NCBI GenBank assembly: GCA_024228555.1
Contig: JAAETI010000263.1
Coordinates: forward strand, 1 to 46,146
Reading direction: 5' to 3'
Source: a bacterium
GTDB lineage: Bacteria; Actinomycetota; Acidimicrobiia; Spongiisociales; UBA5794
DNA: 46,146 bases
The notes beneath the pieces are model-generated. The model had not been told where the DNA came from. It worked only from the letters and a program-made list of their open reading frames with translations, and made no database searches. The translations under genes and the position numbers were made by a program. Shown one piece after another: positions 14,333-30,575 of the stretch (positions are counted from its first letter, which is position 1; each line of letters starts with the position of its first letter).

Positions 14333-16576
14333 CTAGCTGGCTCGGGTGATTCTGTCTTGTGGTCCTGGCGGCATCGGATCGATTACACCGAAGTAGTCGA
14401 CCAACGCATCGACATCGACCATTCCGATCAGTCGGTCGGTCCCTTCCGTCAGCAGTGCGAATTCGTCTCCGCCACCTGCCAGGAAGCTATTGACTGTGAT
14501 CCGATACGAATCGGTCAGGACAATCGCTGTGCCGTCAATCGCGATCGTTGCCGCATCGATCTTGCTGCCTTCGGGCATGGAGTCGTCCCAGGTGTAGGTG
14601 AAGCCGTCGGACACTTGGAGTATCTCCGGCTTGTCATCCTCATCCCGGCCGACCCACTGCTGCTCGAGCAACGTGTCGATTTGGGCCCCGGTCAACGTCA
14701 TGGTGACCAGATCGTTGTTGAACGGCTGCGTGGTGAACGCCTCGCCATAGGTGACGACTCCGTCTCCCTCAGTGCCGCCGGCTGCAAACAGGATGTCTGC
14801 CCTGATCCCGCCTGAGTTCATGAACGCAGCTACTGCGTTTCCTGTCGTCGGGCTTGATGTTGCCGCCAGTTGAGCATCAGCGATGATGTCGCCTAGCGCA
14901 GACTCGCCGGCAGCGGTCTCATCCTCGGTCAGGTCTACCTCGATGTGGCCGATCACTTCGTTGGCCAAGGTCGCCGACAGAGCGTCGTACTTGTCGATCA
15001 GCGCCGTCAGATCCGCAGCGGGCGTAACGTCAGCCTGATAGTTCGGCACGTTGTCGATCGCTTGAATCGTCATGTCCTTGGTGATCCGGTTCAGGCTGAC
15101 ATCGATGTCGGTGTACATCCGTCCAGACCAGTAGGCCATGGTCACGGCCTTGCCGTCAACGTCCATGCAGACGAACCGCTGGTTGTTGTGGCCACCGATC
15201 ACGAGGTCCACGGAGTCATCGAGGCCGTCGACAATGTCATACAGCGGACCCGAGAGCGTCCCGCAGGTATCTCCACCGTCGGTGCCTGCATCGACGAGAC
15301 CGCCCTGGTGCATCAGCACCACGATCGACTCGATGCCCTGGGCTCGGATCTCAGGGATCAGAGCGTTAACAGTCTCGACCTCGTCCACGAACGTCAACCC
15401 CGCAACCCCTGCTGGGGTAACGATGCTGGGTGTCCCTTCGAGGGTCATTCCGATGAAGGCCACCGGGATGCCCTGATATTCCTTGACCGTGTACGGTGCA
15501 AACAGAGGTTTACCGGTACCGGTCACGATGACGTTGGCTGCCAGGAACTCGAAGTCGGCACCCAAGAATGGGTCACCATCGACGTCTCCATCGACGGGAT
15601 GTGCGCCACCGTTCTGAAGACGAAGCAGTTCCACTCCACCCTCATCGAACTCATGGTTGCCGACCCCGTTGATCTCGAGACCGAGGAGGTTCATCGCTTC
15701 GATGGTTGGCTCGTCATGGAACAGCGCAGAAATCAATGGCGATGCGCCGACGAGGTCACCCGCTGAAACTGTGATCGAGTTTGCTGCACCGACTTGGCTG
15801 GCACGCATGTTGGCTGCCAGGTAGTCGGCACGGCCGACGGCTTCGCGTTCGGCGCCACCGACGTACGAGTAGGACGTCGTTGCGATGTTGCCGTGGAAGT
15901 CGTTGATGGCCAGAACTTGCAGCTCGACCTCCATATCGGCCCTATGCAGGAACGCCGCCATTTCGCCACGACTTACCGGATCGTCGGGGCAGAACTGGTC
16001 CCCGGTGGGCGGGTTGCACCCAAGAGTGATGCCGGCAGTGCCCAGCTTGTCGATGTCTTCCTCGAAGACGGATCCATCGTCGTCGGTGAACAGGTCGCTG
16101 CCGCTGCCGCCGAGCAGGCCCAAGGCCCTGTTCATGAACGCAGCCATTTGTCCGCGAGTGACTGTGTCATCGGGGCAGAACTCTGTGTTATCCGGCGGAT
16201 TGCACCCTGCGGTGATGCCGGCAGTGCCCAGCTTGTCGATGTCATCCTCAAACAGCGAGTTGTCGTCATCGGTAAACAGGTCGTCGCCTGCGCCATCGGT
16301 CAAGCCGAGGCTACGGGACATGAATGCTGCCATCTGGCCGCGAGTTACCGGGTCATCTGGGCAGAATTGGTCGTTGGCCGGCGGGTTACAGCCGGTTGTC
16401 AGGCCATTGTCGGCCATCCATTGAATGTCGTTCTCGAACACCGAGTTGTCGTCATCGGTGAAGGTTCCACCGTCGGCGGTGACCGCAACTGGGCTCAGGA
16501 ATGCCATTACGACACCCACTGCCAGCGCGATCGTCACAAACCGATTTCTAATTCGGGCTCTGGGCTCCTGTGACAA
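14333..16576 (-). CDS. Surface 5'-nucleotidase with three SLH-like repeats
   Basis: Exported UshA/5'-nucleotidase-type metallophosphatase of 747 residues. A signal peptide (VTIALAVGVVMAFLSPVAV) precedes three repeats of ~58 residues, each with FTDDD, an acidic helix, GCNPP, FCPDD and TRGQMAAF, the Acidimicrobiia-style SLH-like module that carries two Cys. The catalytic domain (~222-480) shows AINDFHGN, SAGDLVGASP, GNHEFDEG, VLMHQGG and GGHNN, the di-metal ligands. A 5'-nucleotidase C-terminal substrate domain follows, with GGIRADI. It probably releases phosphate and nucleosides from extracellular nucleotides. Start: TTG at 16576 with GGAGA seven bases before it. The leader region 16577-16809 holds no gene that I can see. 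Confidence 0.9.
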   Translation of the reverse strand: MSQEPRARIRNRFVTIALAVGVVMAFLSPVAVTADGGTFTDDDNSVFENDIQWMADNGLTTGCNPPANDQFCPDDPVTRGQMAAFMSRSLGLTDGAGDDLFTDDDNSLFEDDIDKLGTAGITAGCNPPDNTEFCPDDTVTRGQMAAFMNRALGLLGGSGSDLFTDDDGSVFEEDIDKLGTAGITLGCNPPTGDQFCPDDPVSRGEMAAFLHRADMEVELQVLAINDFHGNIATTSYSYVGGAEREAVGRADYLAANMRASQVGAANSITVSAGDLVGASPLISALFHDEPTIEAMNLLGLEINGVGNHEFDEGGVELLRLQNGGAHPVDGDVDGDPFLGADFEFLAANVIVTGTGKPLFAPYTVKEYQGIPVAFIGMTLEGTPSIVTPAGVAGLTFVDEVETVNALIPEIRAQGIESIVVLMHQGGLVDAGTDGGDTCGTLSGPLYDIVDGLDDSVDLVIGGHNNQRFVCMDVDGKAVTMAYWSGRMYTDIDVSLNRITKDMTIQAIDNVPNYQADVTPAADLTALIDKYDALSATLANEVIGHIEVDLTEDETAAGESALGDIIADAQLAATSSPTTGNAVAAFMNSGGIRADILFAAGGTEGDGVVTYGEAFTTQPFNNDLVTMTLTGAQIDTLLEQQWVGRDEDDKPEILQVSDGFTYTWDDSMPEGSKIDAATIAIDGTAIVLTDSYRITVNSFLAGGGDEFALLTEGTDRLIGMVDVDALVDYFGVIDPMPPGPQDRITRAS

Positions 16577-22232: not shown

Positions 22233-24266
22233 TCAGCCGCCTCCGCCGTCACCGTCACCGTCGTCGCCATCATCGGGTGGTGGTTCCTCGGGTGGAACGT
22301 ACACCCCAACACTGATGGTTATCGTCGTTCCGACGTCCACCCATTCTCCCGACTCAGGGGTCTGGTCCACGATCAAGCCGCTGTTTGCTTCCTCCGTGAT
22401 GCCAACGGTCGGCCCTTCAACAAACACCAAGCCAAGGGCTTCGACAGCGGCCCTGGCGCCGTCACTGGTGCCACCGAGCAGCGCCGGTACCTGGACGGGG
22501 CAATCCGGCGGGTCACCAGACGGGATGTTGCAAGAATGAACCTCGCGGATCTTGGGAGCCGGCCGGTACACCCATACGTATTCCTCTTCGATGACCGTCC
22601 CGTCCGGGTACGTCATTATTCGCTTGACCGTGTTGGAGAATCCACCCCAGCCGCTCTGTGTCACCTTCTCATCTAGAGGCGTGAGATCGGAGTTTGCTAC
22701 GTATTCCTCTGGTGGGTCGGTGAAGTTGTAGCGGCTCCCCAACTCGCGCTCTGCGACACAGCCGCCATTGTTGCCGTAGAACTGGACTGTGATGTCGGTT
22801 GCTGTGTACTGGGTCTTGATGATGACGACCGTGTCCGTGTTGTTTCTGAAGGTCAGATTTGGCACGGGCCACGAGATAGTGGCTTCGTTCACCTCTGGAT
22901 ACCGAGAGAAGTAGTAGCTGTGAGGCTTGTGGTCGACGTCCTCATAGCACCCGAAGAAGCTGGCGTTGTAGAACGTGGTGGCGAATTGACTGACTCCGCC
23001 GCCGACATCGTCGACGAGCTTGCCGGCGAGGATCATCGGTGCGGGGACGTAGCCCTTCTCTGTTGTGCGTTGGCCAACGTATTCGTTGAGGGAGAACTCG
23101 TGACCAGGCAGAACCATGGCCCCGTCGATGGCGTCTGCTATCAGATGGATGTTGGTGACCCGCGCCTGGCCGGCCGGATGCGAAGTAGTGAAACCAGAAA
23201 CGAATCCAATGTCGCCCATTGCCTCGGCTGCTGCGGTGGTGAACGCAGGTTCGCTGCCGTAGCCAAACGGAAATTCGCCGGAATTGCTTGGCGACGCTGC
23301 GGCATCGGCAAGCGAAGCGGCCACAAGGTCGGCGTCGAGGAGAGTCGCCGGGCGTGACTCTTTGAGGCTGACGCTCGAAGTCTCTTCATTGATGACAAAC
23401 TCGGCATCACGAGGCGGTTGCTCGATTTCGGGCTTCAGGGGAAGAAGGATTGGTTCGATTTGCTCGGGATCAAACGACAGAACGATCGTGGCCCCTGGGT
23501 TGCTCGTAACGTCGGAGACGAGGGCGGCCGCCAACTCTTCTCGGCTGAAGATCACGCTGAACTCGGGATCGTCGGCAGAAAGCGTGGTCGGACTGTCGAT
23601 GAGCTTCGCCGCATCGAGCGTGGCGGCATCGACGTCAGCGTTAGTAAGTTCTGGCTCAATCTGCACGGTCTCAAGGTTGAGCGTGCGACGCTCCAACGTT
23701 TGCAGCCCCGCCAAGATGACTCGTTGAGCATGGGTGCGGTCGATGCCTTCACCGGGACGGGGATAGTCGGGCAGCACTCGCGTGTCTCGAACAACGACTC
23801 CGCCTTCGTAGGCCGGAAGGTCGATAGCCTCCGCTTCCCAGTCTCCAAGGATCTCGTCGAGAAGGTCCTCATCGACACTGACGGGGACGACAAGGTCTAC
23901 CGGGTCACCAAAGCTTCCGATCCATGCGAAGAATCCGGAGAAGAACCCGGTGCCGCGCCTTTGCTCCATAGCCAATGCAAGGATGGCCTCCTCGTCGATA
24001 TCGAGGTCGACGTCGGCAGGCTTGAGAATGAATGTTTCATCCTTGACCGTGGAGCGTGCTGTTGTCTGCGCCAACTGGGTCTCGTAGTCCAGCAGGACAG
24101 CCCGAGCGTCCTCTTCGCCAAGACCACCCAGGTCGATACCTGCCGCAGAGACGTTACGGGCGACCTCTCCATTCGAGCGTGCGCTATCGGCTGCGTAGAT
24201 CAGCCATGGCAGCAATACGAGCGCGGCGATGCCACCGATCAGGATCCAACGTCGTTGTTTGCTCAT
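22233..24266 (-). CDS. VanW-domain cell-wall protein with PASTA domain
   Basis: 677-residue envelope protein. A basic N terminus and one membrane helix (WILIGGIAALVLLPWLIYAA) are followed by two YoaR-type peptidoglycan-binding-like domains (~50-300), a VanW domain (~330-470, with GFVSGFTTSHPAGQARVTNI, LPGHEFSLNEYVG and GGGVSQFATTFYNASFF), a G5-like strand region, and a PASTA domain (~590-650). It ends in a Pro/Asp/Gly-rich tail. Both VanW and PASTA associate with peptidoglycan. The start at 24266 is chosen because the helix begins there; the open frame upstream is not convincing. Two paired Cys (GCYED and GGCVAE) in the VanW region may form disulfides outside the cell. Confidence 0.88.
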   Translation of the reverse strand: MSKQRRWILIGGIAALVLLPWLIYAADSARSNGEVARNVSAAGIDLGGLGEEDARAVLLDYETQLAQTTARSTVKDETFILKPADVDLDIDEEAILALAMEQRRGTGFFSGFFAWIGSFGDPVDLVVPVSVDEDLLDEILGDWEAEAIDLPAYEGGVVVRDTRVLPDYPRPGEGIDRTHAQRVILAGLQTLERRTLNLETVQIEPELTNADVDAATLDAAKLIDSPTTLSADDPEFSVIFSREELAAALVSDVTSNPGATIVLSFDPEQIEPILLPLKPEIEQPPRDAEFVINEETSSVSLKESRPATLLDADLVAASLADAAASPSNSGEFPFGYGSEPAFTTAAAEAMGDIGFVSGFTTSHPAGQARVTNIHLIADAIDGAMVLPGHEFSLNEYVGQRTTEKGYVPAPMILAGKLVDDVGGGVSQFATTFYNASFFGCYEDVDHKPHSYYFSRYPEVNEATISWPVPNLTFRNNTDTVVIIKTQYTATDITVQFYGNNGGCVAERELGSRYNFTDPPEEYVANSDLTPLDEKVTQSGWGGFSNTVKRIMTYPDGTVIEEEYVWVYRPAPKIREVHSCNIPSGDPPDCPVQVPALLGGTSDGARAAVEALGLVFVEGPTVGITEEANSGLIVDQTPESGEWVDVGTTITISVGVYVPPEEPPPDDGDDGDGDGGGG

Positions 24267-24444
24267 GGGTACCCGCAGAAGACAAGAGAAATTCAGGAAG
24301 GCCGGATTGTACTGGTTTCCTGCACCAACGGATGGTGGTCTCAGCGGAAATCCAACAGAGACGGAGCGTAGCAGAAGGACGACATACGGTGGCATGACAC
24401 CGAGATGACGGAGAAAGCAGATTGCGGTCGATACCATCGGTGCG

Positions 24445-25221
24445 GTGATTGAGTTCCCCCCGGTGCCACCGGGCGAAGTAATAGCGGTTTCCGCCACGCT
24501 CTATATGACATACACGCGATGCCCCGACCAGGCGCTGGGACGGCTTCGCGGGCTCTACCCCGAGGAGAGCAAGGCCGCCTTCAAGGGCGGCCTTGCACAT
24601 CGCGTTTTCGCTCGTCATCTCAGCAGTGGCTCGATAGACGATGTGGACTTTGACCGGGTCTGCAAAGAGGAGATCGGAGCTGGCCTCAATCCAAAGCTGG
24701 GAGCACTTGGGCTGCGCCCTTCCCAGCTCGGCGCCATCATCAACGAGGTAGGGGATCTCTACCAGCGATTCAAGGCTCTGTCTGCCGAGGGATTCCGGGT
24801 TGCCGAGGTCTTTGTCGAGCTGGAGCCTGCTGCAGGACTCAAGCTGCGCGGGTCGATCGATGCCGTGTTTGATGATCCCGAAGGGGTTCGGCTCGTCGAT
24901 TGGAAGACCGGCGGGCTCTATGAGACGGAGCAGCAACTCCGTTTCTATGCGATGTTGTGGGCGATGGACACCGGTGAGTTGCCGGCATATGTGGAGGCCG
25001 TCTCGATTGGTTCCGGGGAACGGGTTGCCGAAACGCCGACAGTTGCAGCGCTCTCCGCTACTGCCGGCGAGGTGGCCGACCTGGTTGGCGTGCTACGTCG
25101 CGCATTCCTGGATGGCCGGCAGCAGATCGAACGGATTGCGGGCCCCTGGTGCCGATTCTGCCCGCAGCTTGACGGCTGCGATGAGGGGTCAGCCGCCGTC
25201 AGGGTCGCCGACGCCGGCTGA
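24445..25221 (+). CDS. RecB/Cas4-like PD-(D/E)XK nuclease with Fe-S cysteines
   Basis: 258-residue nuclease of the PDDEXK_1 group. Catalytic residues in order: H52 in AHRVFARH, D139 in GSIDAVF, D152-W-K154 in VDWKTG, and the QxxxY-type motif QQLRFYA at ~163-169. Four cysteines, C26 near the N terminus and C236, C239 and C245 at the C terminus (WCRFCPQLDGC), match the split 4Fe-4S staple of AddB, Cas4 and related exonucleases. It probably degrades or processes DNA ends. Start: GTG at 24445. It converges with the coiled-coil PD-(D/E)XK-like gene, nine bases away, and stands near two GTPases. No helicase or cas gene is present, so the partner is unknown. Confidence 0.87.
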   Translation: MIEFPPVPPGEVIAVSATLYMTYTRCPDQALGRLRGLYPEESKAAFKGGLAHRVFARHLSSGSIDDVDFDRVCKEEIGAGLNPKLGALGLRPSQLGAIINEVGDLYQRFKALSAEGFRVAEVFVELEPAAGLKLRGSIDAVFDDPEGVRLVDWKTGGLYETEQQLRFYAMLWAMDTGELPAYVEAVSIGSGERVAETPTVAALSATAGEVADLVGVLRRAFLDGRQQIERIAGPWCRFCPQLDGCDEGSAAVRVADAG

Positions 25222-25230
25222 CCCAACTCT

Positions 25231-26517
25231 TCAGGCGACGCTCTGTGCCCTCGCATCCGGGTTGTGGATAGCGCGAACAACATCTTCGACAAGGTCCAGA
25301 AGCTGGCCGCGCAGCGAGTCGAGTTCCTCCCGAACCGTGTCCAGGCCGGACTGGGCATTGCCGAGAACCTTCTTGCTGCGAGAGAAGTGTTGAGCCAGAT
25401 CGCGGAGGCGAGACAGCCGCTCTAATGCTGCTCCCGTATCTACTTGGTCTTCGCCGGTAGCCGCGGCCCGAGCCGCCGCGGCTATCCAACGCAGCGCGAC
25501 CCTGGTCAAGGTCCCTTCTCCCGAGTCGACTACGAGCAGGCGGTTTCCGTATATGCCGAAGCTCCCAACCTCGCCTGGGTAGGCTTCGGTTCTGGAGATG
25601 CAAAGGGCCCACGAGGCTTCTCTGTTGTCCATTGCTTGATCCAGCTCATGCAGGATTCCAGTGGCTCCGGTGAGGCCCACCCGGTTGGTGTTCTTCACCT
25701 CGATCGCCACCCTCGTCCCTTCAGGAAGGACAAGCGCAAAGTCGCCAACCTTTGACTGGGTGCCCAAGCTCCCGCTCAGTTGGCCGGTTCGCTCCACTAT
25801 GCATCCGCTGTGCGAGCGCGCCTCATTGCGGAGCATCGATTCGATCTCGTCTTCGAAGGCGACACCCTTGGCTGTGCCCCTTTCGGCCTCCGCGCTGCGC
25901 TGCTGTTCGCCAACCACAAGATCTCGTATCTCCTGGAACCGTTTTTCAATTGTGTCCACAAGCCGTCCCATGCCATGGTCGGCCTCAGCGGAATCAAAAG
26001 CCTCTTCGAGCCGCTGCGAGAGCAACCCTTGCGGCCCCAATAGCTCGCTGATTGACGCCACCAGACGGCTGGTGTGGCTGTCGCTCCGATCGGGGTCGAG
26101 CCGCGCCAACGTCGCCTCATGCAGGGCGCCGAGCTCGTTCACCGTGCGGGCGGTGAGCGAAGAACGGATCTCAGGGTCCAGATGGGCGGCCAGCTCGGAG
26201 CGTCCCGCCTCGACCGCATCGCCAAGGTGGGCGTCCGCTGCCGCGGCCGCAGACTCGAGGATCCGCCCGACCTCCGCTGTCATGTCATCAACCGTGGCTC
26301 TCATGCTCGTTGCCGTGAGACCGTGTACGCCGATGCTGATCGCTCTGGCCAACTCCTCGGCCCGCCGGTCGGGTGAGAAAAGACCAAGGTATCGAGCGAC
26401 ACTGGGATCGGTGATTGACAAGCTGCGAATGACAGTGACGTCGCCTTCGAATCCGACAGTGCCTTCTCGGTCGGAGAATGCAGAGGATGTTGCTGGGGAA
26501 GCGGTGTTTACGTTCAT
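25231..26517 (-). CDS. Coiled-coil protein with PD-(D/E)XK-like domain
   Basis: 428 residues, no characterised homologue recognised. Residues ~40-215 are helical and probably coiled coil. Residues ~215-330 resemble a restriction-endonuclease-like fold: GVAFEDEIESML, then KVGDFALVLPEG with D259, then VAIEVKNTN with E273 and K275, the spacing of a D-(x)n-E-x-K site. GIYGNRLLVVD follows, as in DUF2130/RmuC-like proteins, and the C terminus is helical again. It could be a DNA-end nuclease or a scaffold with a degenerate site. It starts with ATG at 26517 and is divergent from the GTPase pair across ~118 bp, a likely shared promoter zone. Confidence 0.6.
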   Translation of the reverse strand: MNVNTASPATSSAFSDREGTVGFEGDVTVIRSLSITDPSVARYLGLFSPDRRAEELARAISIGVHGLTATSMRATVDDMTAEVGRILESAAAAADAHLGDAVEAGRSELAAHLDPEIRSSLTARTVNELGALHEATLARLDPDRSDSHTSRLVASISELLGPQGLLSQRLEEAFDSAEADHGMGRLVDTIEKRFQEIRDLVVGEQQRSAEAERGTAKGVAFEDEIESMLRNEARSHSGCIVERTGQLSGSLGTQSKVGDFALVLPEGTRVAIEVKNTNRVGLTGATGILHELDQAMDNREASWALCISRTEAYPGEVGSFGIYGNRLLVVDSGEGTLTRVALRWIAAAARAAATGEDQVDTGAALERLSRLRDLAQHFSRSKKVLGNAQSGLDTVREELDSLRGQLLDLVEDVVRAIHNPDARAQSVA

Positions 26518-26635
26518 GCTCTCAAGCTATTCGACCGGTGTGACAAGAACCGCTCGGGGGCGACGTTGTCGACCGCTGGTCGAGTAATCAGCGATGGGTG
26601 CCAGGCAATGGTGCAGGATGTGGTGTAATCCCCCC

Positions 26636-28387
26636 ATGCAGCCAGATGCCGTTGCGATTGGAGCGCTACGCCCGCGACTCGAGAAACTCGCCGAGTTGCT
26701 TGACCGCATTGAGTTCACGCTGCCCACTGATGCCAGGGAAGAGGCGGAGCAGGCACGTGGTGCCATTGTCAAAACGGTCACCGAGTACCTGATTCCGCGT
26801 CTCGATGAGCCAGAGGCCCCGGTTGTTGCCGCTGTTATTGGTGCGACCGGAACCGGGAAGTCCACAATCGTCAACTCGCTGGCCAACGACCGCATCTCCG
26901 ATGTTGGCGCACTTCGACCCACAACCCGCAGTCCGGTGTTGTGGGCTCACCGTGACCACGCCGGACGGTATTGGTCGGAGTTCGTAGCCAGGGTGCGGGA
27001 GCGGGTTGGTGCAACGGTCGAGGTTGTGATCGGTGACGATGAGCTGACCCAGGAACTGACCGTCATTGATACGTCCCCTGCCGAATACATCGCCCCGTCT
27101 GGCCGAAATCCCGCAGAAGATGTCCTGGCACTTGCTGATCTGTGCGTGTTTGTTACGAGCCCCACCCGCTACGCCGACATCTCTGCCTGGCAGTTTCTCC
27201 GCGAGATTCGGTGGCGGGGGGTCCCCATGCTTTTTGTGCTGAACCGACTCCCTCCCGACCGTGACGAGGCGGTTGCTCTCCTCAACGACTTTGCCTCCCG
27301 CCTTCACAACAACGGGCTGCTGCTCGAGCCGGATGCCGCCATGGTGTTTGGCGTCAACGAGGCCGTCGGAGATCGCTGGCATGGTGGCCTGGAACCCTCT
27401 GCAGTAGGTGCGTTGCGCAATGAACTGGGCGCAGTGTCCAACTCTGGGTACCGCGATACCCTTGTTGCGATGACTGCGTACACGACCGGTCGCAACGTGG
27501 TCGATCGCAGTCGGATCGTCCTCGACGAGTTCGACAAAGTAGTTGCCATTGCCGCGGAGCTGGAAGTTGTCGTCGACGAGTCATACGACAATCAGGCGAC
27601 TGAGATCAACGAGTTGCTCGCGAGCGGCGGACTCAGCGATATGGCTAGGCATCGGACATGGTCCGAGGCCGCCGTCGATCTGACCGCAATCGTGACTCGT
27701 CGTGCGGGTGTGGCCGCCCAAGAGACAGCTCGGGTTTGGCTTGCCGATCCGGCGGGGTCGGTCTTGCTCGAAGGCAAAGGTGCCTCCCTGTGGAGGCACA
27801 CAGAGGACACGTCTTGGGATGTGCAGGGACGTCTCGAAGAGTGGGAGGGGACCCTCAGTGAGGTTGCTGTCAAACATGGCCGGTCCGGAACGATGGGCGG
27901 GCGAGCGGCAAAAAAGGTGGCTGCCAAGTCATGGAGTCTCGTGGTTGCTCCGGGGGAGAAGGCACCGTGGGGAGTGCGGCGTCGTCTCGGCAAGAGCATG
28001 GATGCGTACATCAGCGACGCTCAAGACAGCCTGGGCCGTGTAGTTCGAGATGCTCTCGAGGTGGACGCCAGCCGCTTCCGGAAGCACCTCGGGATGGAGA
28101 TCGACGTCGCAAAGCAAATCGACCGCAACGTGGTCGCCATCTCGGCATTGCTCCATGGTGAAGTGCCGCCGCTGGAGAGCGTCCCTGACCCGGCCACTGT
28201 GGAAGAGACCGTGGACTCAATCGGCGAGGATCTCGAGAGCATCGAAAGCGATGAAACAGCGGAAGAACCCGGCAGTCTCGAGGACGGTGACGACCTCGCA
28301 GATGTTGCCAATACCGATGCAGAGCACACCGGTGAAGACCCCCAGATAAAGATCGAACCGATCGAGGAGGAGGACACCGATGCGTGA
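26636..28387 (+). CDS. Dynamin-like GTPase, first of a pair
   Basis: 583-residue P-loop protein. Walker A GATGTGKST is at residues 69-77, with LRPTTRSPV as the likely switch I Thr region, and LTVIDTSPAEY as G3 strand (DTSP in place of DxxG). The G4 position reads VLNRLPPD rather than NKxD, so guanine specificity may be altered. A long helical region follows, with GGRAAKKVAAKSW and SMDAYI, ending in a very acidic Glu/Asp tail. No membrane helix is obvious. The gene overlaps the second GTPase by eight bases. Paired GTPases of this kind occur widely in actinobacteria, and dynamin-like pairs act on membranes in Streptomyces, but the job here is unknown. An in-frame start at 26594 is the alternative. 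Confidence 0.8.
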   Translation: MQPDAVAIGALRPRLEKLAELLDRIEFTLPTDAREEAEQARGAIVKTVTEYLIPRLDEPEAPVVAAVIGATGTGKSTIVNSLANDRISDVGALRPTTRSPVLWAHRDHAGRYWSEFVARVRERVGATVEVVIGDDELTQELTVIDTSPAEYIAPSGRNPAEDVLALADLCVFVTSPTRYADISAWQFLREIRWRGVPMLFVLNRLPPDRDEAVALLNDFASRLHNNGLLLEPDAAMVFGVNEAVGDRWHGGLEPSAVGALRNELGAVSNSGYRDTLVAMTAYTTGRNVVDRSRIVLDEFDKVVAIAAELEVVVDESYDNQATEINELLASGGLSDMARHRTWSEAAVDLTAIVTRRAGVAAQETARVWLADPAGSVLLEGKGASLWRHTEDTSWDVQGRLEEWEGTLSEVAVKHGRSGTMGGRAAKKVAAKSWSLVVAPGEKAPWGVRRRLGKSMDAYISDAQDSLGRVVRDALEVDASRFRKHLGMEIDVAKQIDRNVVAISALLHGEVPPLESVPDPATVEETVDSIGEDLESIESDETAEEPGSLEDGDDLADVANTDAEHTGEDPQIKIEPIEEEDTDA

Positions 28388-29636
28388 CGTTCCCGAACTC
28401 CTCGATGCGATCGATCTCGTGCTGGCGCGCGCCTTCGGCATCGTTCCCCCAGATGTGCTGGAGGAAGCCGAGCAGTACGCAAGTGATATCAGAGAGCGCC
28501 GTGGCTTTCTAGGCGAGACCCTCGTGCTGGCGGTGGCCGGAGGGACCGGCACCGGGAAATCGAGCCTCGTCAACGCTCTGGCCGGTGAGATCATCACATC
28601 GGTAAGCGTCCTGCGGCCCCATACCGATGAACCGTTTGCGGTGATCCCCGAGAATCCAGAGCCGGCGGTGACGGTGTTGTTGGACACCCTTGGCATTCTG
28701 TACCGCCATGAGCACGCCGCGTTCACAAAGACCGCCATCATCGATCTGCCTGATGTCGACTCGATCGCTGATTGGCATCGCGAGCGAGTAGAAGACCTCA
28801 TCCCGCGCGTTGATGGTGTGATTTGGCTCTTCGATCCCGACAAATACCGCGACCCAATCGTGCATGACGAGTTCCTGGCCCAGCTAGCCCAGCATCAGAG
28901 CCAGTTCATCTTTGCGCTCAACAAAATCGATCGGTTGCACCCCGATGATGTGCAAACGGTTCGCGAGGACCTTTTTGAGACTCTTGCCGCCGACGGCTAC
29001 CCCCGGCCGGCGCTATTCGCGCTTGCCGCCGATCCGCCCAGTGCATCGCCGCGTGGAATCGAGCTCTTCCGCGAGCACGTCACCGAGCGGATCGACACCA
29101 AGACCGTCATGTTGCGCAAGGTCATTCGTGACGCTGCAGGCATCGTCAGGACGATTGGCGAAGCTGCCGGCGTATGGGAGGGTGTGTCGGTCGATTTCGA
29201 CAAGTCGTGGGCTCGAGTGCGCACCGAGGTGCTGGCAGGTGTCGGCTCTGGGTCTAGCCAGGCCGATCGGGAGGATGCGTTGTGTCGGCTCGAAGACCTC
29301 ACCGCCTTGATTGCGGTCAAGTCCGGCCCCCTGCTGGGTGAAGAGGTGCGAGATGTTGCCGATCGGTCAGCAATTGAATCAATTGTCGATCAGCTTGCCG
29401 AAGCAGGACCAGCCGAGCCGGCTCCCAACCCTGGCCTGTGGGACAAGCTAACGGGTGCAGAGGACGACGAGGTGGTAGCGAGCCCTCGTGCCGACCTGCT
29501 TGACAGCCGTCTGGGCGATCCGCTGCGCGCAATACTCTGGAAGAGGGCGCTGCTTGCGGCCACGGTGACACACGCCGCAATCGGCGCCATCGAACTCGAG
29601 GACAGGATCAAGGTTGCTGAACCTAACCCCGGTTAG
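28380..29636 (+). CDS. Dynamin-like GTPase, second of a pair
   Basis: 418 residues. Walker A GGTGTGKSS at 54-62, a LRPHTDEP switch I segment, IIDLPDVDSI as G3 and FALNKIDRL as an intact G4, so this partner keeps full GTP specificity. A helical stalk-like C-terminal half follows, and the last ~30 residues contain RAILWKRALLAATVTHAAIGA, an amphipathic or weakly hydrophobic helix that could touch the membrane. Its ATG lies inside the last codons of the first GTPase, which suggests co-translation and a heteromer. The 3' end overlaps by 14 bases the stop region of the convergent lipid-kinase-like gene. Confidence 0.82.
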   Translation: MRDVPELLDAIDLVLARAFGIVPPDVLEEAEQYASDIRERRGFLGETLVLAVAGGTGTGKSSLVNALAGEIITSVSVLRPHTDEPFAVIPENPEPAVTVLLDTLGILYRHEHAAFTKTAIIDLPDVDSIADWHRERVEDLIPRVDGVIWLFDPDKYRDPIVHDEFLAQLAQHQSQFIFALNKIDRLHPDDVQTVREDLFETLAADGYPRPALFALAADPPSASPRGIELFREHVTERIDTKTVMLRKVIRDAAGIVRTIGEAAGVWEGVSVDFDKSWARVRTEVLAGVGSGSSQADREDALCRLEDLTALIAVKSGPLLGEEVRDVADRSAIESIVDQLAEAGPAEPAPNPGLWDKLTGAEDDEVVASPRADLLDSRLGDPLRAILWKRALLAATVTHAAIGAIELEDRIKVAEPNPG

Positions 29637-30543
29637 GAACAAGGACCGACAGCGCGTCATAGGCCGGGGTGATCTCAACAGACTCCGCGGTCCCCAGCAG
29701 TTCACCATCTGCTTGGAACGGAACCCCCGGCTCGGCGTGGACTATGAGCTTCTCCACATCGTGAAAGACATGAGTTCCTCCGTGTTCCAACGATCGATGG
29801 AACATTCCGCGGGCGGCCATTGCCACCGTGTTGCCGGCGGCGACACGCTCGATCGCCACGGCCGTCAGACCATCGCCCGGATCGGGAGTGAGGCGAAGCG
29901 GAACCCGTCCCCAGTATGTGTATAGGTCGTGGACCTGAACCAGCACAGTGGCGGCATGAACGCGTTCGCCGCCACACTCAACGAGCATGTCGGGATGCTT
30001 CGATCGGTACTTGCCCAGGACCTGTTTGGTGGCAATGGCGACGAAGTTGAGAGAAGAGAAGTGGTACTTGGCTGCAGGGCGTCGATCCGACACAGCGACC
30101 ACGTCGGCATCTAGGCCCAAGCCAAGCGAAAAGACGGCGTACTCGGAGCGGGCAGCGAGTGGGCTCTCGGTAGCGATGTGCGCGAGGCTCATCAATTCCT
30201 GGCGTCCGTTCACGATCCGTTCGGCGGCCTTCTGCGGTTTCATGGGGACATCGAGGATCCGGGCAACCACGTTCGTTGTCCCCGTTGGGATCACTCCAAG
30301 TGCCGTACCGGTGAAGGCAAGGCCGTTCGCAACGTGGTGAACGATGCCGTCACCACCCATCGCCGCCACGACCGAATAGCCGGTGGCCGCCGCATCGGCA
30401 GCGGCCTGTCTGGATTCGGCTGGGCCATTTGGCCACGACGTTGTGACCTCGAATACATCGCCGAGAGTCTCCTCGACGGTACGCAAAGCTGCACCGGTGA
30501 ACCCGGATGCCGTGGGATTGGCAATTAGAAGTAGTCGTCGCAT
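29623..30543 (-). CDS. Diacylglycerol/sphingosine kinase-family lipid kinase
   Basis: 306 residues of the DAGK catalytic family (YegS/BmrU/LCB5-like), which transfer phosphate from ATP to a lipid alcohol. Visible motifs are LLLIANPTASG at the N terminus, VVAAMGGDGIVHHVANGL (the GGDG nucleotide site) and LGVIPTGTTNVVARIL. The C-terminal beta domain contains the PLRLTPDPGDG and FQADGE segments found in the family. Start: ATG at 30543, before the conserved RRLLL; an ATG two codons upstream is the alternative. The substrate is not determined. The gene is divergent from the phosphoribosyltransferase at 30576 with only 32 bases between starts. Confidence 0.87.
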   Translation of the reverse strand: MRRLLLIANPTASGFTGAALRTVEETLGDVFEVTTSWPNGPAESRQAAADAAATGYSVVAAMGGDGIVHHVANGLAFTGTALGVIPTGTTNVVARILDVPMKPQKAAERIVNGRQELMSLAHIATESPLAARSEYAVFSLGLGLDADVVAVSDRRPAAKYHFSSLNFVAIATKQVLGKYRSKHPDMLVECGGERVHAATVLVQVHDLYTYWGRVPLRLTPDPGDGLTAVAIERVAAGNTVAMAARGMFHRSLEHGGTHVFHDVEKLIVHAEPGVPFQADGELLGTAESVEITPAYDALSVLVPNRG

Positions 30544-30575
30544 GTGCATTGAAGGGTAGAGGTACGCTGGGAGCT

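Follow-up and report, generated by a model that had tools for sequence, protein, structure and literature searches.

A vertically inherited gene block combining a DynA/DynB-type dynamin-like GTPase pair with an RmuC-like nuclease and a RecB-type Fe–S nuclease in Acidimicrobiia

The closest described relatives of the genes considered here belong to separate systems. DynA and DynB of Streptomyces, a side-by-side pair of dynamin-like proteins, stabilize Z-rings, and DynB is membrane-anchored with two transmembrane segments (PMC8748795). RmuC of Escherichia coli is built, in this order, from a helical arm, a PD-(D/E)XK core, and a helical C-terminus, and it has been linked to McrC (PMC1189080). 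Proteins with an RmuC domain cleave DNA, and the membrane can be their site of action (PMC10270631). Here, we describe a block of four genes on contig JAAETI010000263.1 (assembly GCA_024228555.1) from a bacterium of an uncultured order of the Acidimicrobiia; the whole stretch of 46,146 nt that was analyzed is called the window. The block is a vertically inherited chromosomal pair of DynA/DynB type with an abutting RmuC-like nuclease, termed coil, and a co-occurring RecB-type Fe–S nuclease, termed NUC. Its features are as follows.

24445–25221, plus strand: NUC, RecB-type PD-(D/E)XK nuclease, 258 amino acids (open reading frame (ORF) list, Pfam, homologue alignment)
25231–26517, minus strand: coil, RmuC-like helical protein, 428 amino acids (ORF, alignment, predicted model)
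26518–26635, no strand: divergent control region between coil and GTPase A (genus-level sequence comparison)
26636–28387, plus strand: GTPase A (GTA), dynamin-like, 583 amino acids from the likely start (ORF, Pfam, alignment, predicted model)
28380–29636, plus strand: GTPase B (GTB), partner of A, 418 amino acids (ORF, Pfam, alignment)

All four ORFs of the cluster reported in a preliminary description of this DNA are present. NUC and coil converge, as that description had it, within nine bases: their stop codons are separated by exactly this distance (25222–25230). The reading frames of GTPases A and B share 8 bp. GTPase A can be read as 597 amino acids from 26594 or as 583 from the ATG at 26636. 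The latter start is more likely, because homologues begin about there and a GATGTGGTGTAAT box, found in six sequences of the genus, stands just before it. GATGTGGTGTAATC, also just before this ATG, is conserved within the genus. On the coil side of the control region, TAGCKT is found about 6–7 bp before the coil ATG, and a TTSTGTCAC element lies farther upstream. Judged from these sequences, the coil and GTPase A transcripts both look leaderless.

In the AlphaFold model, the coil protein consists of helices (residues 38–211), a PD-(D/E)XK domain (about 214–350), and a C-terminal helix (361–418). The mean predicted local distance difference test score (pLDDT) is 74, with about 85–93 in the core, and the predicted template modeling score (pTM) reaches only 0.40, owing to uncertainty in how the helical arms are oriented. 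The core was matched by VIA-align to VC1899 (Z 10.5), Bax1 (9.6), Can2 (9.5), and McrC (9.5), and Can2/Cdn1, Hjc, and EndoMS were also among the structural matches. All leading matches with clear identity are PD-(D/E)XK proteins. Foldseek alone gave only E values of 0.08 and above, and the fold call therefore rests on VIA-align; a sequence search against solved structures gave no match. In the predicted model, the coil core thus folds as a PD-(D/E)XK domain. Across 35 homologues, some with as little as about 20% identity, the residues E222, G258-D259, and E273-x-K275 do not vary; E222, D259, E273, and K275 had also been invariant in a first set of 28. E273-V-K275 is the "EVK" site that the preliminary description had called nuclease-like, and the region that carries these residues is the one modeled as PD-(D/E)XK.

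The window coil protein has no match to RmuC (PF02646) or DUF2130 (PF09903) up to E 1 and no predicted transmembrane segment. Taken alone, it was assigned to a family by none of the libraries searched, and no Pfam or NCBIfam family covers it. Among 28 homologues, nine match DUF2130 weakly (best E 0.00042) and four match RmuC weakly (best E 0.0016). Coil represents a conserved nuclease-type family that has no Pfam or NCBIfam entry. A search of genome contigs with the single coil protein as the query gave no match. Distant relatives were found in other genomes as well, in six outside the order of the host and in one inside it; none of these relatives adjoins the GTPase pair. These distant relatives in other Actinobacteria (L303–L308 and L322) retain the E...D...ExK residues in the company of different neighbor genes, for example a putative glutamate synthase-like and a putative LOG-family-like gene.

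NUC matches Pfam PDDEXK_1 with an E value of 7.8e-15. In an alignment of 29 homologues, the RecB motifs (H52, D139, D152-W-K154, and QLxFY) are invariant or nearly so, and Cys26, Cys236, Cys239, and Cys245 (C..CX2CX5C; one N-terminal and three C-terminal) are invariant. This cysteine set is of the AddB/Cas4 Fe–S type, and the four residues are predicted cluster ligands. The nuclease scan found a NUC orthologue in this order only, at about 72 loci. Where labeled, nearly all of these belong to metagenome-assembled genomes of Acidimicrobiia/Actinomycetota, and a few to other or no class. The identification of NUC as Cas4 proper was rejected, because no CRISPR array is present: no CRISPR-like repeat family was found within the window. 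The PADLOC match of NUC to the Cas4 model is only 14 bits.

The G1–G4 motifs of GTPase A are complete and invariant (G83..S90, T111, D159, and N217). In GTPase B, G1, G2, G3, and NKID are invariant in 25 homologues (GGTGTGKSS, T82, D122, N181, and D184). Taken singly, the two proteins score 26.8 and 27.3 bits with Dynamin_N, which is borderline for a model whose cut-off is 27. The predicted model of GTPase A (pLDDT 85.9, pTM 0.77) has a G domain followed by a long dynamin-type helical bundle and an acidic, low-confidence tail. It was matched by Foldseek to BDLP (E 1.5e-10) and IniA (9.6e-9), and by VIA to Fzo1 (Z 22.9, root-mean-square deviation 4.2, 324 residues aligned). As modeled, GTPase A is dynamin-like. 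In a profile comparison, the best solved match of GTPase B is the Campylobacter dynamin pair. Neither GTPase in the window has a predicted transmembrane segment, whereas outside the order two are usual in B and one in A. A relation between the presence of coil and the loss of these segments was sought, and none was seen.

These results bear out the preliminary domain assignments of the individual genes. The nuclease it had called Cas4/AddB-like, with a 4Fe–4S-type cysteine set, keeps its catalytic motifs and four cysteines among its relatives; the nuclease-like site of the coiled-coil protein is conserved; and the paired P-loop GTPases overlap, have full motifs in both members, and have a dynamin fold modeled for A.

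Among 149 relatives, A/B-type matches were found in 113–116, NUC matches in 115 (some only to paralogues), and coil in 37. Presence and absence were scored by hand in 75 good genomes of the order: 59 have NUC and the GTPases, none has NUC alone, three have the GTPases alone, and 13 have neither (Fisher test 4e-12, kinship ignored). In family f6, the block is missing as a unit and VanW is directly next to the diacylglycerol-kinase-type gene (DAGK); in four genomes of this family, pyruvate kinase, a 98-amino acid gene, VanW, and DAGK form an uninterrupted run without NUC, A, or B. In a tree based on pyruvate kinase and VanW, coil is spread across the majority of the deep branches. It was therefore probably present in the ancestor of the ingroup, with several later losses; the rooting of this tree on f6 is an assumption. 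Coil and A are correlated in their pairwise distances (r 0.84), as are coil and pyruvate kinase (r 0.83). The distances of the block genes thus track a housekeeping gene, which fits vertical inheritance, and horizontal transfer of coil is not supported. A joint loss in genus g47 was dropped as independent evidence of coupling: the position of g47 in the tree is poorly supported, it adjoins lineages with compact arrangements, and one deletion could suffice.

The block has VanW on one side and DAGK on the other, and pyruvate kinase and the 98-amino acid gene lie upstream of it; the neighborhood is metabolic. The two anchors outside it are as follows.

22233–24497, minus strand: left anchor, VanW/PASTA protein, likely true start about 24266 (library match, gene order)
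29623–30549, minus strand: right anchor, DAGK (library match, gene order)

The VanW protein ends in a C-terminal PASTA domain, and its listed start overlaps NUC. VanW adjoins NUC in 60 of the 60 named loci with enough upstream sequence, and the GTPases are present in 42 of the 52 named loci with at least 3 kb of downstream sequence. Coil faces the GTPases across one control region, as first described, and is next to and divergent from GTPase A in 23 of 23 loci. In many genera, other genes are inserted between NUC and coil, yet coil stays beside A. In several genera, the space between NUC and coil or A, or the place of coil itself, is taken up by unrelated genes encoding a PIG-L deacetylase, an epimerase, an HD domain protein, or a histidine kinase.

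Across 346 genomes sampled from the phylum, the GTPase pair is found widely. In all 33 loci examined outside the order, A and B occur together, and their genes almost always overlap. Three species of family f53 (L311, L331, and L332) have a different RecB-type nuclease (PDDEXK_1, E 3.9e-36) just downstream of the pair and convergent with B. It has a similar C-X2-C-X5-C motif and is the only RecB-type nuclease close by among these 33 loci.

Here, we tentatively propose, at somewhat below even odds, that the block serves an accessory DNA-processing function coupled to a DynAB-type dynamin-like assembly at the envelope or septum. The function is called accessory because the RmuC-like part can be lost. 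Gene content, motifs, the modeled folds of A and of the coil nuclease domain, linkage, and shared presence or absence are observed; DNA cleavage, physical interaction, location, and purpose we infer as follows. A and B would form a heteromeric, GTP-driven assembly at the cytoplasmic face of the envelope or at the division site. Having lost the membrane anchors of their relatives, the A and B proteins of this lineage would have to bind the membrane peripherally or via a partner. Coil, whose catalytic domain is flanked by long helices, would lie beside this assembly and cleave trapped or aberrant DNA there, and NUC would trim DNA ends. Together, the proteins would maintain the genome at the septum or envelope. 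We count in favor of this proposal the intact catalytic motifs in both nucleases, the predicted PD-(D/E)XK core of coil, and the modeled dynamin fold of A. The invariable pairing of A and B, the constant adjacency of coil and A, the clean absence in f6, the fact that NUC never occurs without the GTPases, and the parallel of the f53 nuclease also suggest it. By analogy, Streptomyces DynA/DynB (PMC8748795) and the DNA-cutting RmuC-domain proteins (PMC10270631) may serve as precedents.

Several observations weigh against this proposal. In most Actinobacteria, the A/B pair has no such nuclease neighbor, NUC and the GTPases were kept through several losses of coil, and one f2 sub-clade has NUC and VanW about 13–34 kb away from the GTPases. 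The absences of NUC and the GTPases amount to about two events, because the 13 genomes fall in f6 (10) and one f2 genus (3). Adjacency alone is weak evidence because the whole region, from pyruvate kinase, VanW, and NUC to DAGK, is syntenic. A mild SepX-like or purely divisional role of A and B would require no nuclease. A serious rival, ranked close behind, is therefore inert synteny: a stand-alone repair exonuclease, an RmuC-like recombination nuclease, and a DynAB-type division pair would have separate roles and be kept together by a region that rarely rearranges. We give this account a probability that also falls short of one half. Pyruvate kinase, VanW, and DAGK, which flank the block, are equally well kept (VanW beside NUC in 60/60 loci), the distances of all block genes correlate with those of housekeeping genes, and coil has solitary relatives. 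Inert synteny fits less well with the f6 absence, which takes out exactly the block genes while both anchors stay. It also fits less well with the 59 good genomes that have both NUC and the GTPases against none with NUC alone, and with coil never being parted from A though insertions next door are common. The co-occurrence of the four genes, put forward for testing in the preliminary description, holds for NUC with the pair and for coil with A, including their absence as a unit in f6, and does not extend to a constant presence of coil. That description had named independent occurrence in relatives as a point against a joint system, and such occurrence is seen in part, as the pair without nucleases, the coil losses, the solitary coil relatives, and the distant NUC of one sub-clade.

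Two further readings were considered. In the stronger form of coupling, a two-nuclease, two-dynamin system, the pair would control the soluble coil protein via the shared divergent promoter and direct contact, NUC would be a processing partner, and GTP-driven membrane assembly would gate DNA cleavage at the septum or where the envelope is damaged; we regard it as unlikely. The least likely of the readings, and an improbable one, is a chromosomal anti-phage or anti-plasmid module, in which A and B would respond to an infection by detecting or patching damage to the envelope and would allow the nucleases to degrade the DNA that enters. DynA of Bacillus subtilis delays phage lysis (PMC8844932), and ShdA, which has an RmuC domain, acts as a DNase against phages (PMC10270631). 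PADLOC gave weak matches of NUC to DruK (39 bits, with no Druantia partner seen) and of GTPase B to LeoA (24.7 bits, P-loop only). However, PADLOC found no defence gene among 10 other proteins of the window; its sole matches there were of helix-turn-helix and peptidase type and lay in one regulator-like protein. The neighbors are metabolic. Unlike defence cargo, the block is vertically inherited and kept at one site across many families. The anti-phage island of the preliminary description was rejected as the leading reading on these grounds, and because of the vertical inheritance in a metabolic neighborhood, the term defence island is not supported.

Many bacteria carry pairs of dynamin-like proteins. 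A pair inherited with two nucleases offers a concrete hypothesis linking membrane remodeling and DNA processing. In the literature searched, no paper on a dynamin–nuclease gene pairing or on this combination was found.

Two features elsewhere in the window were also recorded. The gene at 14333–16576 (minus strand) matches SLH domain and 5'-nucleotidase C-terminal models and holds a 186-nt tandem repeat in three copies (16008–16462). At 2196–2334, two 25-nt repeats (CAAGGCGGTAACGCCAGTTCAAATC), 114 nt apart, resemble a tRNA T-arm; despite these, ARAGORN found no tRNA in the window.

Compared with E. coli RmuC, coil has the same order of helical arm, PD-(D/E)XK core, and helical C-terminus, but it lacks an N-terminal transmembrane helix and is below the curated scores of RmuC and DUF2130. 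Shield has an RmuC-type nuclease, ShdA, as a possible effector, and coil may act likewise; ShdA is membrane-anchored and found in Pseudomonas defence loci, whereas coil is a soluble protein with a vertically inherited gene next to those of dynamin-like GTPases (PMC10270631). NUC shares the RecB motifs and the four-cysteine pattern with the AddB/Cas4-type Fe–S nucleases, but it is a stand-alone protein of 258 amino acids with no helicase partner. Homologues of A and B in one actinobacterial genus (G170 and others), which we guess to be Streptomyces, form an adjacent pair in which B has two predicted transmembrane segments, as in DynB. The window pair resembles DynA/DynB, as published, in being a side-by-side dynamin-like pair in Actinobacteria. 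It differs in lacking transmembrane segments, in the nuclease genes beside it, and in belonging to an order not known to sporulate (PMC8748795). We call it DynAB-like, not DynAB, because its B lacks the two transmembrane segments of DynB. Campylobacter Cj-DLP1/DLP2, BDLP, and mycobacterial IniA have only 11–17% identity to A and B, and their described operons have no nuclease, but they share the bacterial dynamin fold and paired genes with A and B and are among the best matches of one or the other (PMC6104087).

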